From Branchiostoma floridae (taxonomy: Eukaryota; Chordata; Leptocardii; Amphioxiformes; Branchiostomatidae), in NCBI RefSeq assembly GCF_000003815.2, contig NC_049994.1, positions 8,777,766-8,841,765 of the forward strand: 64,000 bases of DNA. The letters are read 5' to 3'. The notes beneath the pieces were generated by a model that did no database searches, was not told where the DNA came from, and was given only the letters and a program-made list of their open reading frames with translations. This document shows, piece after piece, positions 6,911 through 63,900 of the stretch (position 1 is its first letter; each line of letters starts with the position of its first letter). Made by a program: the position numbers and the translations under genes.

Positions 6911-7894
6911 AAACTTGAGTCCTCTGATGGCAGTCATCCCTTCTTTGTTATGGTACTCTTGTGCTTTGTATTCCTCTACGTCCTGTCCATCTGTATAATA
7001 GTTCCTCTGTACGTTCGGATATTAGTCAAAGTAAGGCAGTCTCACCGTTTGGTGGTAAGGGAGACTAGGTCGGACAACCAGGCATTTCTTATGATGTTTG
7101 TAGTGACGGTCTTTTTTCTTTTCACCTGGCTTCCTTATCACGTCATTTATTTTATTATCCATCGAGTTGTTTCAAAAGAGAACGACGTGGCAATCGAGTT
7201 GGCAAAATCGCTCGCGGTTCTGAACTCCATGGCCAACCCGTTTCTCTATGCTCTTCTCGGGAGGAACTTTCGACATCAGCTAAAAAAGATGTTTTGCTGC
7301 AAACAGCGGGAGAACAGGAAACATTGGAGACCAAAGAGCGAAGCTTCGACGGACATGACACTAACAAGACATGTAGTAGAAGCAACAGAACATGCTATAG
7401 GACAGGCAGATGTGACGGAACAGGCCCAGGATACAGGTGGGACAGGACAGGCCCATGACACAGGTGGGACAGAAAGGACCAAGGCTACAGACGGGACAGA
7501 AAGGACCAAGGCTACCGACAGGACAGAAAGGACCAAGGCTACCGACAGGACAGAAAGGACCAAGGCTACTGACGGGACAGAAAGGACCAAAGCTACTGAC
7601 GGGACAGAAAGGACCAAGGCTACTGACGGGACAGAAAGGACCAAGGCTACCGACGGGACAGAAAGGACCAAGGCTACTGTCGGGACAGAAAGGACCAAGG
7701 CTACCGACGGGACAGAAAGGACCAAAGCTACCGACGGGACAGAAAGGACCAAGGCTACTGACGGGACAGAAAGGACCAAGGCTACCGACGGGACAGAAAG
7801 GACCAAGGCTACTGACGGGACAGAAAGGACCAAGGCTACCGACGGGACAGAAAGGACCAAAGCTACCGACGGGACAGAAAGGACCAAGGCTTAA
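6911..7894 (+). CDS. Rhodopsin-family GPCR, 3' part (TM5-TM7) with repeat tail
   Basis: The frame opens after a TAA at 6908-6910 and first reaches ATG at 6950. It contains a TM5-like run (VLLCFVFLYVLSICIIVPLY), a basic third loop, TM6 with the family motif as FTWLPYHVIYFI, and TM7 with LNSMANPFLYALLG, where NPFLY is the NPxxY motif. Helix 8 follows (RNFRHQLKKMF), then Cys-Cys, a possible palmitoylation site. TM1-TM4 are missing upstream, so this is either a last exon whose acceptor I cannot fix (TTGAG at 6915-6919 is possible) or a fragment. The cytoplasmic tail then becomes about 16 copies of a 9-residue unit, GTERTKATD, up to the stop at 7892-7894. Ligand class cannot be assigned. Confidence 0.6.
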   Translation, partial: KLESSDGSHPFFVMVLLCFVFLYVLSICIIVPLYVRILVKVRQSHRLVVRETRSDNQAFLMMFVVTVFFLFTWLPYHVIYFIIHRVVSKENDVAIELAKSLAVLNSMANPFLYALLGRNFRHQLKKMFCCKQRENRKHWRPKSEASTDMTLTRHVVEATEHAIGQADVTEQAQDTGGTGQAHDTGGTERTKATDGTERTKATDRTERTKATDRTERTKATDGTERTKATDGTERTKATDGTERTKATDGTERTKATVGTERTKATDGTERTKATDGTERTKATDGTERTKATDGTERTKATDGTERTKATDGTERTKATDGTERTKA

Positions 7895-7899: not shown

Positions 7900-9640
7900 G
7901 GGACAAGACTGGCTACAGGTGGGGCAAGACAGTCCCAGGCTACAAATGCGATAGGACAGTCCCAGGCTACAGGTGGAACAGGACAGTCCCATGCTACAGG
8001 CGGGATATGACGTGTACAAGGGTACAAAGGAGACAGGCCAGACCTGGTTATTTTCGGTACTACGTCATGCAATTGCCAAAACTCTGTCTATCCGGAACAA
8101 AAGAAAAGCAAGTTACATTATGTTTTCCATGCCAACTATCATAATTCTTCATGTTCTCGTAATGTGTGCACAGCCTGAAATTATCAGTGAAGACATATAT
8201 CCGTGCATTCTAAGGAAACATAGTTTATTTTCCCACTCAGAAACCGCTTAATAGAAGAAAGGTACACTATGCTCTCCATATGTAAGTTAAAGATACCCCA
8301 CCATTAATTTTTATCTGATGTAGTTACCAAGGGTGAACACCTATTAACACAAAAGTGAACAATTAAAAGCACTATATGTATATAAATGGGGTTTATTTCG
8401 AAAAACAAGCAACATTGTCTCAAACATGGCAACCAATACATCTGAGTTCAAACAGTATTTTCCAAATTAACGGTAGAAGACTTTCACGACAAATTAATTA
8501 AAACATATACAGCGCCAACCATGAAAACTTGTGAGACGATACCTATCCGTCAAGAACAGTGAGCTATAAAAACAGACAGTAGCGGAATTAGGTGCTCCAT
8601 ACTAGAAAACAGTACGAAATTGTGCAAAAACAGGCATGAACACACTGCAAATGAGCCGGATCATTACATCTACTTGTAGATTACAAGTCTTCTTACTTTT
8701 GTTGAAAGGTACACTTGCTATTCACTATGCTTCTTTTTAGTATCTACATGTACATACATATTTTTTTAACAGGGACAAATATGACTGTACAATGCAGTTT
8801 GTGTGCAACATCTTCCCACTTTTGCAAACAAAAAGTCATACGGCTAAGTCTATAGATTTTTTATTTGTAATTCTTGGGTCTATATATGGCTGAGCAGCCG
8901 GGAAATATCAAGTAAACATTGTTTACTGTAGATTATCAACTGGATAGAGATTGCTTTCCTAAATTAAAATACTTTTCTGTTAAGAAAGTTAACTAATGAG
9001 TCCTACTAATAAGCCTCCTAATGTGTTGATTAAGTTTCATGATTGACTGTCTGCAAGGATAGAACATCCAAAGTGTATGAAGTATACTATCTTAATTTGT
9101 GGTCATATTTTTGAGTCCATATAAAAGCTAGAAATATTTAAGGTCAAACCTTACTTTGATATAGGCAAATATCTGATAATACACTGAGTTACTTTCTGCT
9201 TACCTTTAGTCTAATTTTCAATGCCAACCAATGTAAAATGAACACTTTGGTTGGATACCAATCTGTCAAAGTGAGTATTTGCTCCAAATTGAAACCTTCC
9301 TTTTTCATTCACTTTGATTTATCATGCTATGTATTACAACCATATACAAATAAACATGTGCGGAATAGACAGAGGTATCAACTTTCCCAAATACACAACT
9401 TAAAACTCTTGCCATACTGGTAGGTGTTGATCATGACTGCCTTTGACTCTGTTGGAGAACAATATAAAAACCGTGTAATTACTTCCGATATGCCATTGGT
9501 TTGATGCTGACAAGTTTCAAAGTCAGTGATTTTATTTGACAGGTGTGGGCAACAGAGTTACAGTATTGTAGTTATCTACCTGAAACAACAGAGCTACATG
9601 TATATGTGCATTTTATTTACCTTTGAAGTGAGCACAATCA
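7900..9640. other. Spacer between GPCR fragment and death-domain gene
   Basis: 7900-8010 holds decayed relatives of the 27-bp repeat. The remainder is AT-rich. It contains the presumed 3' UTR of the minus-strand gene ending at 9642, with an AATAAA on the minus strand at 9612-9617. No other gene is recognised. Confidence 0.5.
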
Positions 9641-9641
9641 G

Positions 9642-12600
9642 TTACTTCTCAGCCACTGGTGCTTCCTTCACAGTTGTTTCTGAAATATAAACAACAAAAC
9701 ATTTTAATCTACTACGCAAATGCACAGTGTTATTGATTCAACTGTTGTGTAAATTATGAAATGGGTTGTACCAGAACACTCAATTGAAGAGCAAATTCAA
9801 ATACAATTTGACTTGTTATCTCATTGTAGCACATAGAACTGAAAAATACCTGGGAATTTCTCCTTCAAACCATCCAACACACTCTGCAGCCCTGCCTGTT
9901 TTAGAGCCTTCATCAGCAAATCTATGGTTGCAAAGTTCCCTTTCTTCCGTTTCCACTTTCCCAGCATGTGCCAGCAGCTTTTCTTATTGTCACGGTTTAG
10001 TTCGGCAATGTTTTGAATGTCTGTCCATGAGAAACCAAGAAAATGGGCCAAGTCCATCCAGTCAGTGCTTGCTTTTTCCTTGATGAAGTAGATGTAATCA
10101 GCCATACCTGACATGCACCATGGACAAAGACAGTAATCATTTTGTAAGTGCTGAGTGTTGAGTATTTTTTCAATTGTGTTCTGCACTTCTGCTTCCCTTG
10201 TACTGGGTTGAATTGAACACATACTCTTATGGAGTGCCTTTATTGATAATTATTTTTGATAAGAAGGTTATGTTTTCGGGAGCATTCTTATCTGTCTGTC
10301 TCTTTGTCTGTGATGCCTGGATGGATTGCCTTGAGATTTGAGGGTAGGTCTTGATGAGACCTCGAAATGATTAGATTTTTGGCCCTGGGTGGAGACGATG
10401 ATGAAGTGTGTTTGTCATTGATCATCATTATCCAGCCATACTAGCAAATATTAACCAATAGGTATGGTTTATGTGTACATGTGTACAATCATGTGACATT
10501 GAAAAATCCTACTGTACTTGTCTAATTGAGCTATATGTCCAACTTTGTAACAACTGTAAGTGCCAATACCTGATTTCTTTTTGATCGTCCGTTTGACTTC
10601 TGATGCAATTGTTGGTCGGGAACCGGATGCTGCTCCCTATTGGTAAAATAATTCAGTGACATAATTGTCAATGAGTCTTTTCTAATGATTAATCTAAATA
10701 CAATGCTATCTTTACATACTTTGTTCTAAGTGTTGTGGGCTTGACTTATCAATCAATTTGATATTATTTGTCAGTCATTGAAGAAACATCAAATTATCTA
10801 TCTTTCTGGTAATAAATGTAGCCTGATTAAAATGGCACCCCTAGCGGCCGACCCCACAATTGCCGCCGCCCTAGGAGGAGGGGGTCATTAACCCAGGCCA
10901 GTGAGAGCTTGTGTAAACACAAACTAGTAATAAATGATACATTGCTGTATTTTTAACATTGTCTACAAGACAGCTTTAAATGCCATAGCTGTATTTTACG
11001 TCTGTAATAGTTTTTTTTTTCATTTGATCCAATATAAAAGAATGTAAGTACCTGCAGGTGGTCTTCCATCTGTCTAGCCGGGAGTACTTTTATCGAAAGT
11101 TCACACAGAAAGATTGAGCTGGGTTGCTCTTCTGGTTCTTGTTCCTTCCTCAGAACACTGCATACTTTCTTTCCATGGGCATTTACTCCGACAGAAACGC
11201 GAGGCAAGGCATAGAACGTCACAAACCCCTCTCCGTCTAAATCTGTCTTGCCTTTGCCTTCTTTCTCACCTCTGACTGTGATATGGAGGAGGTTATGTTT
11301 TATCTGACTGTGGAAAGTTATTTGCTTGTCAGCCTTGCCGAACTGTGCGAATGACACGTTGCCTTCTATGTTTATTCCTACCTTTTGGCCTTCACACAGC
11401 CTTACTATTTTGCTTGGTACTGGAGCCTTGTAACCAGCACGAGTCTCTTTGTCGTCTGTGTCACTGACTTTGCAGCATTCTATGAGGAACTGATTTTGGT
11501 TGTCCTCCCGCTGCATTAGCATGAACTGTGCATCATGCTGATGAATCCAATTGCAAAGTGCCAACGGAATCGGTCCTATTTCCTCTGATTTGCCACCAGC
11601 CTGCATATCGAGTATGATATGGCTGAAAGATAGAATTATTTGAAAATATGAATAAAAAGAAGAAAAATATGTTGTTTTTTTGTCTGCAATTTTCAAATGC
11701 CGGAAAGGGTGCTAAATCTCAGTCTACTAACGGTACTAGACTAAGTACAGATTTTACCCTAAAACCTGCTAAAATCATGATGTCATCATGATGACTGTTA
11801 CAAAATGTTCAGTACCTGGAGGCTTCTGTGACGTTGAACTCAACAAATTCTCCAAGGTCTCGGATGTTGACATCATCAGTCACATCTGTCCACTGGTCTG
11901 TCCCCTCCTCAGATGATGTCACACGCAGTTCGGTGGCGCCACCTTGTGGAACCTCCATGTAGTGCCGAGGATGTGGCACTTGCACTGTGACTGGCTTGTT
12001 GAAGTGTACTGTTAACTGATCAGCAGCTTCGATCTTCACTATCGGGCTGGTGCAAACAAGGCTGTGGGAAGACTGGTCCCTGGCCTTCATGTCCTCCAAT
12101 ACTTCTTTGGAAATTTCTTGAACCTGTTTTTGCACATAGGATAATGATTCAGTTACACTTAAGGGTACGACAGACAAAAGGAAGCACAGTAATTTGTTTC
12201 AGATGAAGACATTTTCCGTTAATAGTACAGTACGACAATTATTTCTCCAAAGGAGAAGCAAATATACACATCAACATTGATACCCTTTTTATTCTACATG
12301 TTGGTATTGAAGATTGTTACCTGTAATTTCACTTGAATCGGCGTGCTCACTGACTGCTCAGGGATAGTGATTATTACAGTAGGCTGGGTTGATGATGTCA
12401 CTGTGACTCCTTTTGTAGATACAGAAAAGTGGTCTCGTTTGAGTTGACTGATGACAGCAAAGATGGCAAAGTGATCCACGGTAACTGTGATATGCTCTTT
12501 GCTCTGAAATAAGAAAACAAAAGAGAAAACCTCAAAAGTCATAATCTATTAGACAGAGAATCATACAAAATTTGTCAGATGTTTCATGATGCAATCTCTC

Positions 12601-15600
12601 AAAGCTGACAAGAATTTTTTTTTCCACATGCCTTTCTGGTTGTTTTGAGTTCTCTCCATTGTGACATGTCTTCTGTGACCCATATGACTGGTTCCCTGGT
12701 GTCACCTGATAACGTGCTGTTGTACGGCAGACGTACAGTGACAGGTTTGAGGAAGGTTGTTCCTTGTGGGCCCAGCTCAATGATGTCACTCACTAACATG
12801 TCTCCATCCCTAAGAGACAGTGTGACGTCATTGGGGTCGATGATCCGACAAGTGATCACTGTTTGCATGGTAACGGCTCCAGGTGGCACACTGACGATAC
12901 AGGACGTGGTTTGTAGTTCACCTCCTTCTGCACCAATGCTGAGGCTGTCACCTCCTTCTGCACCAATGCTGAGGTTGTCACCTCCTTCTGCACCAATGTT
13001 GAGGCTGTCACCTCCTTCTGCACCAATGCTGAGGTTGTCACCTCCTTCTGCACCAATGCTGAGGCTGTCACCTCCTTCTGCACCAATGCTGAGGCTGTCA
13101 CCTCCTTCTGCACCAATGCTGAGGTTGTCACCTCCTTCTGCACCAATGCTGAGGCTGTCACCTCCTTCTGCACCAATGCTGAGGCTGTCACCTCCTTCTG
13201 CACCAATGCTGAGGTTGTCACCTCCTTCTGCACCAATGCTGAGGTTGTCACCTCCTTCTGCACCGATGCTGAGGTTGTCACCTCCTTCTGCACCAATGCT
13301 GATGTTGTCACCTCCTTCTGCACCAATGCTGAGGTTGTCACCTCCTTCTGCACCAATGCTGAGGCTGTCACCTCCTTCTGCACCAATGCTGAGGTTGTCA
13401 CCTCCTTCTGCACCAATGCTGAGGCTGTCACCTCCTTCTGCACCAATGCTGAGGCTGTCACCTCCTTCTGCACCAATGCTGAGGCTGTCACCTCCTTCTG
13501 CACCAATGCTGAGGCTGTCACCTCCTTCTGCACCAATGCTGAGGCTGTCACCTCCTTCTGCACCAATGTTGAGGCTGTCACCTCCTTCTGCACCAATGCT
13601 GAGGCTGTCACCTCCTTCTGCACCAATGCTGAGGCTGTCACCTCCTTCTGCACCAATGTTGAGGCTGTAATGGTTGTGACTGAAGTCAGTACTTAAACTT
13701 AGTATGTTTAGAAAAACAAAATAAAATCATTCTTGATGGCTTTCATACATTGTCAAAAATGTATGTGTTATGATTCTTGTCCTCAGTTATCGTTTATTTT
13801 GTTCTATTGTACAAATGTACATTTGTGCAGTACTTTTAAAAAGACTTTGAATGTTGATTTTAAAAATACATCCGAGACCAGTGCTCAAGAATATCAAAAG
13901 CTTATGTATTCGACCTACCTCTTTATCAGTTGTTGCGACAGGGATGAGACTTCTTCTGGAGTAATTTCTGAATGTGATTTAGGTGCCTTGCCATCCTACA
14001 AAAAAGCAGTTGTTAGTAATTAACAATTTGTAAAAATTGATTTGATAGTGTTTAATATTACGAAATACGGATTGAAATTAATTAAAAAAAAAAACAATTT
14101 ATGTTATGGAGTTTTTCAATCTGTAATAGGTATTAGGTTGAAACAAGGTTTAAGACCTTCTTGGTTGAAATTTTGATTCAACCCCAGACCTATGATATAT
14201 GTAGTCAGGCCATACAGAGTAAGCAAATGCACCCTGAAAGTTGTAATATATGATAACATTCCAAACCTTATCGTCCACCAGTGTCCCAGGCTTAAGGAAT
14301 TCAGCAATACCATAATGTTCTCTCAAAATGGCCATACGAAATGGGGTGACTCCATACTGTAACAACAGGGAAACAAAGTAGGCATCACAAAGCACTAAAT
14401 ATCTAGATCCTTATGTATACTGAAATTTGCACGTTAAATTATCCTTTTCCATATTTCACTCCATACCACAGGGGGGAGTGAAAAATACTGCTTTGTATTG
14501 CTGTATAAACAAACTGTCTTCATCAATTCATTCAATCAATCTATTATTCATCTTTTTTCATTCATTTTATAAATACTACAACCTTTCCAACAACAATATT
14601 ATCTACATGCCATACCTTATTTTTGCTGTCCACCAGTGCTCCAGCATTAAGGAGTAGTTCAGCAACTCCCATATTCCCCGACTCAGCTGCCATGTGAAGT
14701 GGGGTGTCACAATACTGTAAACAAATAGAGTAAAGTCAGCCTGACATACTTTATGACAGGTCTGCCATTGTATCTCTCATCATAAACATGTACAGATAAC
14801 ATCAAAAGAATTGTCACTCATGCCTGGTGTACACCAAGCAGTACCTTATTCCGGCTGTCCATCTGTGCTCCAGCCTGAATGAGGAGTTCAGCAACACCAA
14901 CATGTCCACTCTCAGCTGCCAAGTGAAGTAGGGAGCACTGTTGCTATAACAATGTGACAAAGAGTCCAAGTCATTACCTCATTACCTACATTTTTAGAAG
15001 CATTTTTCGATGTGTGTGTGTCTGTGTGTGTGTGTCTGTATGTGTGTGCCTGTTTTTCATAACGCCATTTTGATTTGATCATATAGATGACATCCTCTGG
15101 GAAGCCCAAAACTGATGCGAGCGCACAAATAAAACAAAATTTGACCAAAAAAAGTTGCCTTTAGTATGAAATCTAAGTGGCAAGGTTGGACATGGGACTA
15201 AACACAAATAGTAATATTTGGTATACCAACAATAAAGTGTAGGGACCGATACATTGTATTGTAAAAATCAGCTGAACGGGTTTCGCCAATTAGAAAACGG
15301 ACACACTATATCGGCAGTCGATTTGGCGCTCAGCAAGCCAACAAAATAACAAGAGCGAAGTCAAGTTGAGTTTACAGTCATTTCTACCAAGTTTCTACAG
15401 TCAAAGGTAGAGAGGTAGCTAGCCTTGATTACATGAAGATAGGATCTTAAAACACCAATGGGAGTTGGATATTCCATCAAATAGATTCCTTTGTAGGACC
15501 CTTGTTTCGAGTATTGCCTGCCCAATCACAAGTTTTCAAAGAGAATCATGTTCAGGTCCGGACCTGGACCCTATCCTCAGGACCTGAACCAGCCCTGTAC

Positions 15601-17158
15601 CTGAATTTTTTGTACTGATACCCACCCCTACCAACAATAGATTTTTCAGTTTTGCACTTTCACATCTTATTCTTTGACTTAATTTTTACTTTGGCATTCT
15701 ATGACATTAGTATCTGTTTTCCGATACTTTTTTTCAATCTACGGCATAAATGTGCTCATTCTACAGCTGTTTTGTACGATTTGCAGTAATTGCTTTTTAT
15801 TGTGGAAACAGCCGAAAAGTGATGCGCATGTCATCCATATAATGTCCATGTCGTCCATTACACATGTAATCAAATCAACATGGCCTAAAGATAACTCAAG
15901 AATGGCTGAAAGGTTTTGTTTGTATTGAAACATCATCCAAATTCAGGCATTTTCTCCCTTTGACAAATTTGACCCCAGTAACAATTTGACATGACACTAT
16001 TCAACTTGGTAAGGATCAGAGGACTGATCAAAAGTGCTTGTTGGTAAGTGCTTCATTTTGTGTATGGAAGTTTAAAATTGCAACATAATTTGACATTTGC
16101 CTTTACCACTGGAGACACAGAATTCAATTTCAATTGAGTTAAATGCAATCTAAATAATATAATTTATATAATTTTTTTGCAATAGAACTAGAGGTTTGTC
16201 AGTACTTACAAGTACTAGTTTACAGTTTACGTCCATTCCATATTGAAGCAATTGCGATACACGAGCCACATCACCATTGCAGACTGCATCAACAAGTTCC
16301 TGAAATTTAAAAAAATCAAGCTTTGTAGACAAAGATAATATGCAATAATCCATGCCACACATACAACACATGTCGTAAAGGCTAACATAAGTCATGATAC
16401 TAAAGGGTGGCAATTAATATCGGTTCAGTGAGGTGGCAGTAAAATTGGGGCATTGGTAACACAAAGGAGTAGAAATAAGTGACTCTAGTGTCCTTTAAAA
16501 ACACCATGATTATATCATTTCCTGCAGTATCTGACTCTTGTTACATGTACTTTCTATTTAGAATGAACAAGTTAGTCACTTTGTCAATATTTTCTCCCAA
16601 AGCAGTCTCACAGACTAGTCTATTGTGAATCGGTCAAATGACCGTATCGCACTGAATGTGATTCGGTCATTTGATATACTAAGAAGTGTCAAGTTTCATA
16701 AGTTCAATGCTCGGAGACGTTGAATGAACAAAAGAACAATAAAAAACCTTAAGTATTTGTACCATTTTCAAGTAATACATTTTAGCAGATTTATCTTTTC
16801 TAGTTTCAAGTTGGTTCATAATTATCATACATGCAGACTGCTCAAACATCATTTGCTGGAGGTTTTAAGGTGTATGATAATCATCAGGATGGAAATGCTC
16901 ATGTAACTGCTGATGCCAACCTTTGCACGTATTTGACTAGGAATCCCAAATCAATACGTGGTATACACATAGGCAAGCGTATAGGTAGTTAAACACAAGG
17001 AATGAAAAACTAGTTCAGCTGTTAAAGTTTGTTGTATGATTTGGACATCAATGGCTACAAAAAAACAGGCCTACAGTCGCAAGAAATTTTGCTAGGCTAT
17101 TCAAAGTAAATGCCATACTAGTTTTACACTTTACCTTTTCAGCGACCACAGAGGACAT
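9642..17158 (-). CDS. ANK-ZU5-ZU5-UPA-death domain scaffold protein (989 aa, 13 exons)
   Basis: Exons from 5' to 3': 17135-17158, 16210-16299, 14845-14943, 14616-14714, 14267-14356, 13919-13995, 12632-13697, 12321-12503, 11816-12123, 11052-11622, 10570-10636, 9850-10107 and 9642-9679. Phases agree across every junction and the total is 2,970 nt. Four ankyrin repeats (residues 9-134; for example TPLHMAAESG) are coded one per exon. A repeat tract follows (about 171-419), then a ZU5 domain (about 419-515, SVPPGAV and GPQGTTFLKPV), a second ZU5 (516-678, VDHFAIFAVISQ), a UPA-like region (679-869) and a death domain (892-977, DWMDLAHFLGFSW). ZU5-ZU5-UPA-death is the order seen in ankyrins and PIDD1. 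With four ankyrin repeats it is far shorter than ankyrins. It is probably a cytoplasmic adaptor; function is not known. One intron uses a GC donor. Confidence 0.85.
12919..13668 (-). repeat. 30-bp coding minisatellite, about 25 copies, in the death-domain gene
   Basis: A 30-bp unit repeats about 25 times with almost no length change, the main variant being a C/T that swaps Ser and Asn. On the minus strand, in the frame set by the flanking exons, it encodes AEGGDSLSIG or AEGGDNLSIG. This frame runs without a break from the exon start (SLSTDFSHNHYSLNIG) into the ZU5 domain (GGELQTTSC), and the splice phase of the preceding exon selects the same frame. The two other open frames (LVQKEVTASA on minus, SPPSAPMLRL on plus) are by-products. 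Confidence 0.9.
15235..15630. mobile_element. hAT-like non-autonomous element, about 396 bp
   Basis: CCAACAATA flanks both ends (15226-15234 and 15631-15639), an 8-9-bp target duplication. The right end reads GTACTGATACCCACCCCTA, the inverse of the TAGGGGTGGGTA end of the element at 37622-38053. The left end is more degraded. Inner blocks rich in GGTCC/GGACC (15555-15600) are also shared with that element. It lies in an intron of the ANK-death gene. Confidence 0.65.
15670..15850. repeat. Dispersed repeat shared with 61233-61380
   Basis: TTTTGGCATTCTA(C/T)GACATTAGTA followed by a GTTTTCC...TCC block and a distal ATGCGCATGTCATCC-like block occurs here and again at 61233-61380. The ends of the family are not clear from two copies. 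Confidence 0.5.
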
Positions 17159-21048: not shown

Positions 21049-24000
21049 TCGCGCACACGTTCCCAAGCACATGCACGCACAGTCACCCACACACACGGAC
21101 ACACTGTATGGCGAATCATTACTTGAAGCAGCCCTGGACAGTTGTATCAACAAGAACCGGTAATAGTTTCTATACAATTGTATATATAGAATACAACACG
21201 GTGTATTCCGTATCACCCGAGGTACCAGCCCGACTGCGGGTCGGATCGCACGACGGCCGAAGGCCGGAGGGTGATCCGACCCGCGGGAGGGCTGGGACCG
21301 ACCCATCTGAGAAAACCACTGTTTTGATGCGAAATGCGCCAGAAGTTGAACAAATTTGTTGCCCTCGAAAAAAAAGCGTTGCAACAGTAATGTTCCAACG
21401 TCCGAATCAGGTATTTGAACTTTTGATGGCGCCGTACTCGGCGCACTCGAAACAGTTCGATTTATTCGAATGGAGCCCGTGTGATAAGCCCGGGCCGTAC
21501 GGAAAGTTATCAGCCGGTCCGGAACACCCGTATCGAATGTTTTCGCGTCACAGGTATGACATAAAAAGAGTTACAGGTACTACTGATGACAGACAGTAGA
21601 GAGGTCCCACCTTCAGAAGCCGGATGGCCTGCTCTGCCACCAGATCCTCCTTCTTGTTCCACTCCACAGACTTCATGACAGAAAACCATACCTAGGGTTT
21701 CAAGAAAATCACAAATTAACAAAAATGTAGCCTTTCTTATTTTAAAAAAAATGTTGATAACAGCTAAGAAAGTTGACCACCAGGTATAAAACCATGAAGT
21801 TTGGAGAGTAATATTAAAACAGCTTCTTATCAATTTCTTATGGCAAAAAACAAGCAAATTAAGCTACCTTCCACCCAGACCACCAAGAAATGTAGGACAA
21901 TAACACTTAGCTTTTTTTTTTGGCAAGCTTTCCAAAAAATGAAATTGAAAAGAAAACTTCTAGGGACTCACCAGAACGACCACCTCATGCTCTGCTAGCT
22001 CATTCTTCTTCATGTAGTCCTTCACATAGAGAACAATCTGTACAGGAACACAAGAGCATGCAAACATTAGCACTTCATACTAAGGTTTTCACATGTAGAC
22101 ACACCTACTGGATATGAGTTAAAATTTCTCATCCTATCTCATCTATCCTTAAGTTTAAATATTTGACAGTTAGAGCACCACTGAAGATCCGACAACCAGT
22201 TTTTTCTGCTCTTCTTAGTTTTCTGTTCTTTTTAATGTTTCCCTTAGTGTCATGCCATTCTCTGGCATCATCCATCTCTTCCCTGGACGGTCACTGGAAG
22301 ACGTTTGAGGGACTTTGTAAGATCAAAGAAAGATCACTGGAAGACATATGGGGCTCATTGAAAGATCATTAGAAAACCTTTTGTCTGGAGATCATTGGTA
22401 AGACCTTTATTGAAAATTTAAAAAAAATATCAATACATGACCTAGAAGATCATTTCAAGAATTGGTGATCACTGATAACTTGCTGAAAGACCACCTGACA
22501 CAGTGAGGGATCTGAAAGCACAACAGTTTTGCCTGTGGAATCCTCATTTCAGCAGCTTCTAGTTCAGCTGGTAGGTTGTTAACGAGGGAGGAAGGAACTA
22601 CAGATACTCACAGCAGGAATGCCATTGGCCAGCTTAAGTAGAGATACAAACATGATTGTGACAAAGAACAGGTGTATACAGTACAGTACAGCACAGGAGA
22701 GACAGGGTGAGGACTCCCTAACATGTAAGGGACAGGTTCTATAGTATGCTTAGCACAAGGAGGAGGTAGAACCCTACAAGCTGGTGTACCGCAGCAGAAT
22801 AGCTCGCCTAACAAGTCTGCAAGCTCTATAGGCCATTTGCAGTAGTGATACTGCACCAGCAAATGTACACAGCGTGATTTTGTAGATCAATGTCCGCAGG
22901 CTATTGACTACCAAAGGTTTCTTAAAAATGCTCATCTTTCTGGTGATTTTGAAATTTGGTTGAGGATGGTTAACAAAGTGATTAAATTGTTCATTAGACT
23001 GTTCACAAGATGATTTCAGCCCTGAAAGTTCAGCAGTCTAATATTTAAGTTGACAATGTTTATTTGTTTGTTTACCTCCTTGACGTCGTCCTCGTTGGAA
23101 ATCATGTCCGCCAGTTTCTTCTGCAGCTCCTTCTTGTATGCCACATTCTGTTGTCCCTTCTGTGTAAACAAACAAACAAAAGTAAACAAACAACTCAGTT
23201 GTAACTGAGGTAGCATACAAGAACATGTCAATTGTTTTGCTTTGCTCTTGTGGTAAATTTTAGTGGGATGTAACACAGTAATACATGTTTAGGGTCTCTA
23301 TAACTATGCCCTCTCAGTTCAGGACACAGCCTCAAACAACCCTGAATTACTCTAGCAAGTGAGAAAGGAGGGAACCTGGTACTGGTACCAGGGCCTGCTG
23401 GCAACAACACTTGCAATACTGTCAGAAAACAAAAAATAATCTTTCAAACTAGCGTCACTTCAAGCTTGCTGTCAATATTACTAATGCTAGCAGATTGAGA
23501 TTTGGGTATCACTAAAACACACAAACACAAAAACACACACATACACAACAAAGACAATACTTTACTCCCCAACAAAACAACCTATGAAGTATAAACTAGT
23601 GTCTGCACCTGGAAATCAGCGACTGGCCCGAGACCAGCTGTGCGGAAATGGGACTCCAGGTGCTCCTGAGAACGTTTGTTGGCTGGGAACAGCTCCTGTA
23701 GGTGAAGAAAAAACATTCAGAATTAACTGTCAAATCTTCTTCAATTGATAATCATATTGAACCCAGGGCTGTCTCCAGGACCTGTCATTCCATCCCAGGA
23801 CAGAGATTTGCTTGTTTGGAAGGGGAAAAATTCACCCAGTCTGTCCAGAAAATCTGAACGTCACGACACAAAATGAGCTCCTAAACAATGAGCGTGATGG
23901 AAAAAAAATTAAAGCCGGAGACAGCCCTGACTCAATTATTCACAGCTAAAACTAGAGGTAATAGACTTAAAACAAATTAGTACTGTTCCTAAGAACCTTT

Positions 24001-37500: not shown

Positions 37501-40500
37501 TACTACAAGCCATGTAAGACAAGATTTTATCTACTTCCACAGGATTGGACTGCTTATCTTCTCCATTATTTCATTTGGATCTTTTTTTATAAATTAACAT
37601 GCTGGTCAATATACTGTTGACTAGGGGTGGGTACCGGTACAGAAAATTAAGGTCCAGGTCCGGTTCAGGTCCAAAGGATCAGGTCCCGGTCCAGACCTGA
37701 ACCTGGACCTGATTCAGTATGACTCATACCAATGGTCCATTTCACTACAAAAATATTTTTTTTGATGGAGTATTAGACTTACACTGGCGTTTTAAAATCC
37801 TACAACGCTCACTGCACCTATGCGATTGGCTGTAAAACTTGGTAGAAATGACTATAAATTCTACTCTACTTCACTCGTTATTTTCGTCCACCTGCAAGCG
37901 TCAAAACGTGTGAATGCCTGATAAAATAATCTGTTAATTTTCTAATCGGTCCAACATCCGGTCCACCTGATTTTTTCAGGTCCGGTTTTACTGGACCGGT
38001 CCAATAAGAAAAAACGGTTTTGTACCGGTACGCTGTACCGATACCCAGCCCTACTGTTGACCCTTGACCTGTCCTCAGGTAACCTTGAGCATACCATTGA
38101 CCCTTGGCCTGTCCTCAGGTAACCTTGAGCATACCATTGACCCTTGATCTGTCCTCGGGTAACCTTGAGCTTACTGTTGACCCTTGCCCTGTCCTCAGGT
38201 AACCTGAAGCATACCGTTGACCCTTGGCCTTTCCTCAGGTAACCTTGAGCATACTATTGACCCTTGACCTGTCCTCAGGTAACCTGGAGGTAACCAGGGT
38301 GATGTTGGAGGCAGGGGCACGGACCAGCACCGTCAACACAGTGGGACGGACGGCATCACAGATGGCAGCATTTGTGGGTAAGATCTGCAGTCCAGGGTAT
38401 TACAACTCTTGCAATGTTTACGGGTTGTATCTTCACAGTTTTATTTTTATTTAGTTCATGACACTATGAATACACACTTCCAATGTATTGTTTTTTATAA
38501 AATCCAAGAACCAAGAAATTACTGCCAATGTTCTGGTCGTCCCACGTAGTGACTGGAGCTACTTCTTTATGCTACTGTCCAAGTGCTACTAGTCTACAAG
38601 AAATCTCCAATATCCTGACAGAGTTATTGTTTCTGTTTGATGAAACTTGGTTTCTTTTTTTCACTTCCACCAGGGCAGCATGCAGTTGTCAGTCTCATCA
38701 ACAACTTCTTCTCCAGGGAGGAACTGGACCACTACACCAAGCCACAGGGTGAGATCTACGAGGATGGTCCATTTCTTAACAGTCTCATAGCCTTTTCCCT
38801 CCATATGATGTGTAACGGAATAACATTGCTATGACAATTTGATATCACATTGATATCAGATTTGAACTACACCAAATCACAGCATGAGATTGCAGACCTA
38901 CATGGTTGTACAGTCACACTATTTCTTGAAAGTTTTGTATCCTTTTCCCTCCCATTTGATTAGGTATTGAATAACATTGATGTCAAATTTTGGTTTGCAT
39001 GTAACTGTAAGGGGCTGACATTTCTTACCCTCTTGAAGTTTTATCTTTGTGATCATTTGGTTGGTTAGTTTGTGAAGAGGATGACTGAAAAGATAAATTG
39101 TGAATGAATTTTTGTGTTGTTGTTTCCCCTCCCCAGGTGTAGAGAAGGAGCCAAAGCTACCCCCCAGCCTGGCTGACTGTGTCCACAAACTCATTCTCAT
39201 GTCCAACCTCAACCCTGTTAAGGTACAGGAATAGAACTTCATACATTCACACCAACAACCCTAACTGTTTTTCCATTGTTTAACCTTCTGAAAAGTTTAT
39301 TTGACAAGCATAACTCCAGTCAGTTGGAGATCTCACAAAAGTTTCTGATAGATGCCGATGAAATGTAAGCAAACTGAATATTAACTGGTTGTAGAAAATA
39401 ATTCTCCTATATCCTATGAATTTACCATGTCCATTGTTCCCATTTCAGATCATCCTGCACCTCCAGGAGAACCCAGAGTTCCAGGATGAGCTGGTGACGG
39501 TGGCCCGCCTGCTGGACACCCTGTGCACCAAGTTCATGAAGCAGTCAGAGACTAACGAGGTCATGGCCATGAAGGTACTTTATCCATGGTTATCAGCAAA
39601 TTAGCTAGCTTTTTTTTTTAACGAGTTTGCTCAGTGCAAGGCCATTGACTGTTTCTAGGCACTGAACTACTAGTATGCTCACTGTGGCAGCATCAGATTC
39701 TCTTCTCCCTCAGAAACATCGAGCTTCAGCAAGCTCGACTAACTGACCCAATGGGCGAAGCAGGGCTTACAAGGCTGCTCTGGAAATTCCCTTGTCCATT
39801 TTGCTGGAATGGTTTTGTTTTGCTCACACGGGATTACGCCATGCAATCTCACGTGTTATTGATGATTTTACCAATTGTGTTAAGTGTCCCATGCAATTCA
39901 GCCCTTGGCTGCAATGTGTGTCTACTAAACTTTTGAATAAGCCATTATTCTTACATGAAGGTACACTACCAGATCTCTAGAAAACTTCTGAATGAACCAT
40001 TATCATTACATGAAGGTGCACTACCAGGGCTGTGTGCTGAGGGAGGCTCACAAGTGGCTGGTGGAGAAAAACGACACCCTCCAGAACCTGATGAAATAGT
40101 GAGTCAAACTACACTTTTAACGGAGGTTATTTTTTCCACTTGTTAAGAATATGGTGATAATACTGATAGATTCACAAAGAGCCCCATTTACTATATGGCG
40201 ATCTTGTTAGATAATATCTGTAGTATGAATATAATATCAGATTTTGATTTTACACCAGCTTGCAAGCATCAGATTTAAATTGTAATGGAACAACAAATGC
40301 TAAACCAAATAGCCAGTGTGTGAGTGTTGACATTTTAATTGTAAACAAGCCTGTTAATTCAGCCTTAGTGTACTTGTTGTCATTGTTGTTTGTTGAATAA
40401 ACCAGTTGATATCAGTGTGCTGTATACTTGTTTGTTACAATAGTGCGTTTACGTATGTAACTTAGTCCGAACTTTGGTGCACAGCTCCAAATCATGTGAC

Positions 40501-62190: not shown

Positions 62191-63900
62191 GCAACATCCA
62201 CACGTCCCTTAACAACATTAATCCCTGAACAACATCCACCCCTGGTGCAGAATAACATTCACACAAACAGCCTGTTCCTAAATAACATTCAGACAAAACC
62301 CCTGTTCCTGAATCCATCCCTATCCCTGATGCTGAACAACATCCACACAAACACCCCTCTCCAAGAATCCATCCCTGTCCCTGAAAAACATCCACACACC
62401 CATCCCTGGTGCTCAATAACATTCACAAGCACACACTGTCCCCGAATCCATCCCTGTCACTGAACAACATTCACACATCCATCCCTAAGCAATACATCTA
62501 TACCTGTCCCCGGTGAATAACAACGTTCACGCATCCATCCATGTCCTTGGTCCTAAACACCATTCGCACATCCCTCTCTGTCCTTGGTTCTAAACATCCC
62601 TCCCTGTCAATAAAAATTCACACATCCCTCCCGTCAATAAACAACATCCACACATCCCTCCTTACTGTCCTTGGTACTGAACAACATTCACACATCCATT
62701 CCTACTGTCCTTGGTGCTGAACAACATTCACACATCCATCCCAACTGTCCTTGGTGCTGAACAACATTCACACATCCATCCCTACTGTCCTTGGTGCTGA
62801 ACAACATTCACACATCCATCCCAACTGTCATTGGTACTGAACAACATTCACACATCCATCCTTACTGTCCTTGGTACTGAACAACATTCACACATCCATC
62901 CTTACTGTCCTTGGTGCTGAACAACATTCACACATCCATCCCTACTGTCCTTGGTGCTGGACAACATTCACACATCCATCCCTACTGTCCTTGGTGCTGG
63001 ACAACATTCACACATCCATCCCTACTGTCCTTGGTGCTGAACAACATTCACACATCCATCCCTACTGTCCTTGGTGCTGAACAACATTCACACATCCATC
63101 CCAACTGTCCTTGGTACTGAATAACATTCACACATCCATCCCTACTGTCCTTGGTGCTGAACAACATTCACCCATTCATCCCTACTGTCCTTGGTGCTGA
63201 ATAACATTCACACATCTATCCATGGGCCTGGTACTTCACACATCCATTCCTGTCAATAACCAACATTCACACATCCCTCCCTGTCAATGAACATTCACAT
63301 CCCTCCCTGTCAATAAACATTCACACATCCCTCCCTGTCAATAACCAACATTCACATCCATCCTACTGTCCTTGGTGCTGAACAACATCCACACATCCCC
63401 ATTCCTGTCAATATTCACACATTCATTCCTGTCAATAACCAACATTCACACATCCCTCCCCCATCAATAACCAACATTCACACATCCCTCCCCCGTCAAT
63501 AACCAACATTCACACATCCCTCCCCCGTCAATAACCAACATTCACACATCCCTCCCCCGTCAATAACCAACATTCACACATCCCTCCCCCGTCAATAACC
63601 AACATTCACACATCCCTCCCCCGTCAATAACCAACATTCACACACAACCCCCCCGTCAATAAACATTCACACAACCCCCCATCAATAAACATTCACACAA
63701 CCCCCCATCAATAAACATTCACACAACCCCCCATCAATAAACATTCACACAACCCCCCATCAATAAACATTCACACAACCCCCCCCCCCATCAATAAACA
63801 TTCACACATCCCCCCCATCAATAAACATTCACCCATCCATCCTACTGTCCTTGGTGCTGAACAACATTCAAACATCCCTCACTGTCAACAAACAACATTC
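62190..63900. repeat. Minisatellite field (40-bp, 32-bp and about 25-bp arrays)
   Basis: From about 62680 to 63215 a 40-bp unit, ACAACATTCACACATCCATC followed by CCTACTGTCCTTGGTGCTGA, repeats about 13 times. From 63425 to 63645 a 32-bp unit (CAATAACCAACATTCACACA plus TCCCTCCCCCGT) repeats about 7 times. From 63650 to 63835 a shorter CAATAAACATTCACACAACC unit repeats. All share AACATTCACACA, so they are stages of one family. Degenerate units fill 62190-62680. Open frames here are repeat artefacts. Confidence 0.9.

Follow-up and report, generated by a model that had tools for sequence, protein, structure and literature searches.

The window, a stretch of 64,000 nucleotides of the Branchiostoma floridae genome, contains on its minus strand a gene for which a 13-exon model was built from position 17158 down to 9642 (Table 1). 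The exons join without a stop codon into a protein of 978 residues, whose start codon and first exon are predicted. All of the 12 introns have GT-AG borders apart from the one after the array-bearing exon 7, which is GC-AG; exon 7 ends at 12632 with the GC donor AAAG/GCATGT (slashes in splice signals mark the splice position). At E values up to 0.001, the Pfam matches on the model are to ankyrin, ZU5, and Death families only. The encoded protein consists of ankyrin repeats, a tandem array (residues 160 to 408), ZU5, a further ZU5-UPA part, and a death domain (Pfam E of 6.2e-12). The ankyrin stretches are located within residues 6 to 131 of 978, and exons 2 to 5 are ANK-like. When compared to sequences of solved structures, the ZU5-ZU5-UPA part matched ankyrin-2 (4d8o, chain residues 46 to 403, E of 2.3e-23), and the death domain matched PIDD (2of5, E of 3.4e-4).

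Table 1. Features of the array-bearing gene, in window coordinates.
Feature	Position	Strand	Basis
Exons 1 to 5, ankyrin repeats	17158-17135, 16299-16210, 14943-14845, 14714-14616, 14356-14267	-	Predicted model and Pfam
Exon 6, donor AGAG/GTAGGT, upstream of the array	13919..13995	-	Predicted model
ACAG, end of intron 6 and first four bases of the array; acceptor of the model, score 10.4	13665..13668	-	Acceptor scores and unit register
Tandem array, 25 30-bp units	12919..13668	-	TRF and unit alignment
Exon 7 (1033 nt), array and first ZU5	12632..13664	-	Predicted model; ZU5 at residues 402-488
AG of a possible in-frame acceptor TATCGTCAG/TGTGC inside ZU5, score 3.9	12891..12892	-	Acceptor scores
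Exons 8 to 13, remaining ZU5-ZU5-UPA and death domain (residues 894-963)	9642..12503	-	Model and Pfam

TRF placed the array of this minus-strand gene at 12918 to 13668, with a period of 30, 25.0 copies, 97% matches, 0% indels, and a score of 1404. In the register ACAG/CCTCARCATTGGTGCAGAAGGAGGTG (full unit ACAGCCTCARCATTGGTGCAGAAGGAGGTG), the array is made of exactly 25 full units, numbered 0 to 24, and the first of them, unit 0, combines 4 intronic and 26 exonic bases. Translated on the minus strand, the unit reads AEGGD(S/N)LSIG, and the array would encode peptides of the type LSIGAEGGDSLSIG. The resulting tract of 249 residues contains 49 acidic residues, 0 basic residues, and 75 glycines.

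Alignment of the 25 units revealed variation at four positions only, with three non-synonymous kinds of change and one synonymous kind. Residue 6 of the unit is encoded by either AGC or AAC, the latter being present in 9 of units 1 to 24 and scattered over five separate runs. Residue 8 shows the same AGC/AAC alternation, with AAC in units 0, 3, and 22, and two changes are limited to single units (CTC>ATC in unit 12 and ATT>ATC in unit 13). The edge units are not diverged: unit 0 is identical to units 3 and 22, and unit 24 is of the common type. Since the occurrence of AGC>AAC in five runs is explained more easily by exchange between units than by parallel mutation, turnover of unit copy number is supported indirectly. 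The length of the spacer could shift in ten-residue steps without breaking the frame; the first-pass annotation proposed that copy number is likely to vary between alleles and that each unit could be a modification site.

The coding frame is fixed by the continuation of the array into ZU5. Upstream, exon 6 ends with ATA AAG AG/ and the array exon starts with /C CTC (phase 2); downstream, the array exon is free of stops through to ZU5. The open frame itself is weak evidence of coding, because four of the six reading frames of the unit are open. The same holds for the 0% indels, a value matched by other arrays of the window for which no coding role is known (for example, those at 38057-38289 and 62640-63221, both from TRF). 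The first-pass annotation had described about 25 near-identical 30-bp units that encode an acidic repeat in a frame fixed from both sides, in a coding minisatellite that separates the ankyrin repeats from ZU5 in a death-domain scaffold. This anatomy, in a protein with a ZU5-ZU5-UPA-death end, and the frame are borne out by the 13-exon model, Pfam, the 4d8o match, the TRF result, and the residue counts; what that reading missed is the start of the array at an apparently copied 3′ splice site.

Intron 6 ends in CAACCATTACAG, and exon 7 starts with CCTCAACATTGG. The repeated segment would thus cover both the intron end and the exon start at this predicted junction. That the segment spans the boundary is a reading based on few bases, since only four intronic bases (ACAG) are common to the unit, which is expected by chance in about 1 of 256 cases; further to the left, the match falls off to one of the next six bases. 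A randomly placed array would be unlikely to begin within 4 nt of an acceptor, but the coincidence was noticed post hoc, so no P value is attached to it.

To score acceptors, we used a position-weight model based on 70 distinct, automatically picked paralog acceptors and 11 acceptors of the window gene. The acceptor at 13664 scored 10.4, compared to a training median of 12.2; the tested acceptor was left out of the training set and its paralog homologues were kept in, so the scoring favors this upstream site. The best AG inside the array reached 0.4 and is out of frame, and no ACAG/CC copy is found among the 25 best acceptors listed, the lowest of which scored −0.8. A CAG located 15 bases upstream of the model acceptor, which would add five in-frame residues, is likewise absent from those 25. 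The first acceptor is preceded by a U-rich stretch and by TACTAAG/TACTGAC, which we take to be branch-point-like. Because the unit is 3n long, only 4 of its bases are intronic at the first copy, and the strongest acceptor lies ahead of the array, the whole array is probably exonic and all 25 copies are probably translated. Removal of the repeat from an acceptor at its 3′ edge, which the first-pass annotation had named as the case against its own reading, is not favored, with AGs inside the array scoring at most 0.4 versus 10.4 upstream. The best acceptor later than the array is the one at 12890 inside ZU5, which, if used, would skip the entire array and about ten ZU5 residues.

Paralogs of the gene were collected by one DNA search of the same genome (513,431,437 bases in 431 contigs) with the ZU5 exon. 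This search returned ten places, the window and nine others (L009 to L017). In all nine paralogs, the segment corresponding to the unit is present as a single copy that immediately follows an acceptor compatible with phase 2, and the homologous exon is open when joined at that phase. The paralog segment mostly reads xGPEGGxLQT, with the variants GPGGGELQT in L010, GPEGGELRT in L015, GPEGVKLKT in L016, and GPNGGKLQT in L017. Seven of the nine paralog acceptors end in TTACAG, as in the window gene, and TRF detected no array at the homologous place in any of the nine loci. When a 180-bp piece of the array was compared to the whole genome, with the best candidates scored and simple repeats skipped, six matches were obtained, all at the array locus. 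Since the segment is single-copy in the nine paralogs and the array piece matched the window locus alone at the sensitivity of that search, the array is most simply read as a derived state that arose through amplification of the ancestral start of the exon.

Tandem repeats at exon boundaries have been described in amphioxus. According to PMC3087553 and PMC3902484, “mirages” are minisatellites that duplicate intron/exon boundaries in Adh3 (Canestro et al. 2002, as cited in both papers), globins, TnC, and PGBD5. As described in PMC3087553, their units measure 10 to 72 bp in Adh3 and 150 to 160 bp in BflGb6 and BflGb9, their length is unstable, even somatically, they are a suggested source of introns, and the edge units of the globin mirages are excluded from homogenization. 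The troponin C and PGBD5 mirages are reported not to disturb splicing (PMC3902484). The window array resembles mirages in being a boundary-duplicating tandem repeat, many units of which keep splice dinucleotides: it is of minisatellite size (30 bp × 25.0), and its unit duplicates the intron/exon boundary at the predicted junction, with the 4 intronic bases. Unlike the mirages described, it has 25 units, a 3n period, only 4 intronic bases, and undiverged edge units. According to the prediction, its copies belong to the exon, are in frame, and would change the protein, whereas the described mirages are said to spare the mRNA.

We favor as the likely explanation a coding “mirage,” i.e., a tandem amplification of a 30-bp segment that spans the acceptor site of the ZU5 exon and whose product is exonic and translated. 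The array would then be a protein-changing variant, probably translated, of a known kind of element. A first tandem duplication would have copied ACAG and the first 26 exon bases; unequal exchange or slippage would have raised the number of copies to 25; and the spliceosome would keep using the first acceptor, leaving the whole array exonic and translated. Continued use of the first acceptor is proposed because of the U-rich tract and the branch-point-like sequence found there. The lack of the edge-unit divergence described for globin mirages slightly lowers our confidence. Since the unit variants comprise three non-synonymous kinds and one synonymous kind, there is no sign of selection for the array sequence. 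The array is probably a tolerated, variable linker; we think that its length varies in a largely near-neutral way and that the mobility of the two halves of the protein is affected modestly at most. A search of the open-licence literature found no coding mirage in print.

The frame can also be kept if the array, or a part of it, is removed from the mRNA. Because the 30-bp unit carries both splice signals, three such outcomes can be envisaged: the acceptor slips to a later ACAG/CC, the site at 12890 is used, or a new intron arises between two GGAG/GT copies. The last outcome corresponds to the Rogers model, in which AG/GT duplication leads to intron gain. As all three routes keep the frame, the resulting protein could resemble the paralogs. 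We regard such removal as unlikely. The signals themselves are abundant, ACAG/C being retained in 15 of units 1 to 24 (the other 9 have ACAA, the S>N change) and GGAGGTG in 25 of 25 units. The unit donor GAG/GTGACA scores 5.0, above the 5th percentile of the donors used (4.0) but below their 25th percentile (6.8). The in-frame acceptor at 12890 likewise exceeds the 5th percentile of its class (3.9 versus 2.3), but its use would cut the start of ZU5. Acceptors inside the array follow a purine-rich stretch, and it is the first acceptor that has the U-rich and TACTAAG/TACTGAC sequence in front of it. The literature lends this alternative some weight: the globin paper proposes the birth of introns from mirages (PMC3087553), and the mRNA is reported to stay normal in the presence of mirages, which would argue for the use of one boundary copy.

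A further alternative, which we consider doubtful, is that selection maintains the repeat because it serves as a spacer or as a platform for modification or binding, similar to the repeat-bearing long exons of giant ankyrins. According to PMC5135030, a subset of these long exons contains arrays of 5 to over 160 repeats of 36 to 228 bp, and Drosophila Ank2 XL carries 93 repeats of 76 residues; one long exon has been postulated to act as a spacer. The earlier claim that no described ankyrin-like protein has such a tract was therefore too strong. Giant ankyrins and the window gene share an array-coded long insert in an ANK-ZU5-ZU5-UPA-death protein; their long exons, however, average 8103 bp and belong to canonical ankyrins with 24 repeats (PMC5135030). 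The protein of the window gene is short, its ANK-like exons number four, and its array is located between ANK and ZU5; a count of 24 ankyrin repeats is not reached in the 978-residue model, and the canonical order of ZU5-ZU5-UPA followed by the death domain is present. To our knowledge, the repeat arrays of giant ankyrins are not located at the ANK-ZU5 joint.

The composition of the tract, which is acidic, devoid of basic residues, Ser/Gly-rich, and stop-free, agrees with a selected role, and the array may possibly be a functional spacer or platform. The absence of an array at the homologous place in all nine paralogs argues against such a role, and so do the unit variants: three of their four kinds are non-synonymous, so that purifying selection is not indicated. 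Structure prediction by AlphaFold2 presented exon 7 as a regular strand-turn repeat, with a mean of 70.4 for the best model and of 30.7 to 54.3 for the other four. In the best model, blocks of residues 1 to 240 ranged between 71 and 88 (pLDDT of ~85 for the array, best of five). A control with the antisense frame of the array without ZU5 (251 residues) scored higher, at 96.8 for the best model and 51.4 to 72.7 for the others. The beta-solenoid fold considered for the array was accordingly rejected as uninformative. No PDB fold matched the array model of exon 7 below an E of 0.98.

The window protein also has a likeness to PIDD1, in its ZU5-ZU5-UPA-death end and in the similarity of its death domain to 2of5 (see above). 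It differs in carrying ankyrin repeats in place of LRRs, no N-terminal leucine-rich repeats of the PIDD type being found in the model by Pfam at E up to 0.001. A second difference concerns the HF/S autocleavage motif that follows each ZU5 in PIDD (PMC3210808), in place of which HFA and EAS are found in exons 8 and 9 of the window gene. Both HF/S sites of the window gene look lost: among the paralogs, the motif follows the first ZU5 in six of nine (L009 to L013 and L017), and the motif of the second ZU5, readable in eight (L009 was not recovered), is HFS in L013, L014, and L017 and HFT in L010 and L012. As for in-frame coding repeats that change in copy number, the zinc-finger array of PRDM9 is comparable. 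The PRDM9 units are folded zinc fingers, whereas those of the window array would form a putative linker.

A bolder version of the coding mirage holds that a splice site has multiplied itself within a coding exon, so that frame-neutral units, through copy number and splice choice, yield graded linker lengths and an intermediate of intron birth. Most units would then carry a copy of the acceptor (ACAG/), and all of them an AG/GT proto-splice site and the decapeptide. We regard this version as a long shot. Mirages as described are boundary repeats that spare the mRNA and are possible raw material for introns; in-frame 3n copies would show boundary duplication writing new protein sequence, and the window array offers a direct test of whether tandem AG/GT duplication makes introns. 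Very improbable is an assembly or annotation artifact, with a mis-assembled copy number or a decaying gene: the draft genome contained one globin mirage in a misassembled form (PMC3087553) and the window gene has lost HF/S-type motifs found in several paralogs, but its 13 exons join stop-free through ordinary splice sites, with one GC-AG, and variant units are interspersed among the others along the array.

Other tandem repeats were observed in the paralog loci and in the window. Within the nine 10-kb paralog loci, TRF found two arrays with at least 4 copies and a period of at least 9, in L015 and L017. The L015 array (gene-oriented positions 8732-8871, 27 bp × 5.1, VPEQQRKRV) is open in frame behind the death-domain exon and, as delimited by TRF, begins 2 nt downstream of the predicted 3′ splice site of a predicted exon; the L017 array has a 31-bp period, 6.5 copies, and a 70% match. 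In L012, a 75-bp × 2.8 in-frame repeat (gene-oriented positions 8259-8469, QQTQDIPDDVM...) begins 80 nt into a predicted exon and precedes a WDFGGQ-type sequence. We take the latter to be GTPase-like, and L012 may carry a GTPase-like domain after ZU5-UPA. About 5 kb from the array of the ZU5 gene, a rhodopsin-type GPCR on the plus strand of the window (6911-7894; 7tm_1, E of 4.1e-14) has in its tail 16 in-frame copies of a 27-bp unit of the TERTKATDG type, followed by a stop. Judging from the L015 array and this neighboring GPCR tail, the B. floridae genome may be rich in coding minisatellites, and the L015, L012, and GPCR repeats, drawn from the paralog loci and the window alone, could reflect a broader tendency of this genome. 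Elsewhere in the window, a 17-bp × 1.9 tandem at 22202-22234, TTTTCTGCTCTTCTTAG, resembles a 3′ splice-site sequence that has been duplicated, and a cluster of minisatellites extends over 1.6 kb at 62251-63842, including one of 40 bp × 14.6 at 62640-63221.
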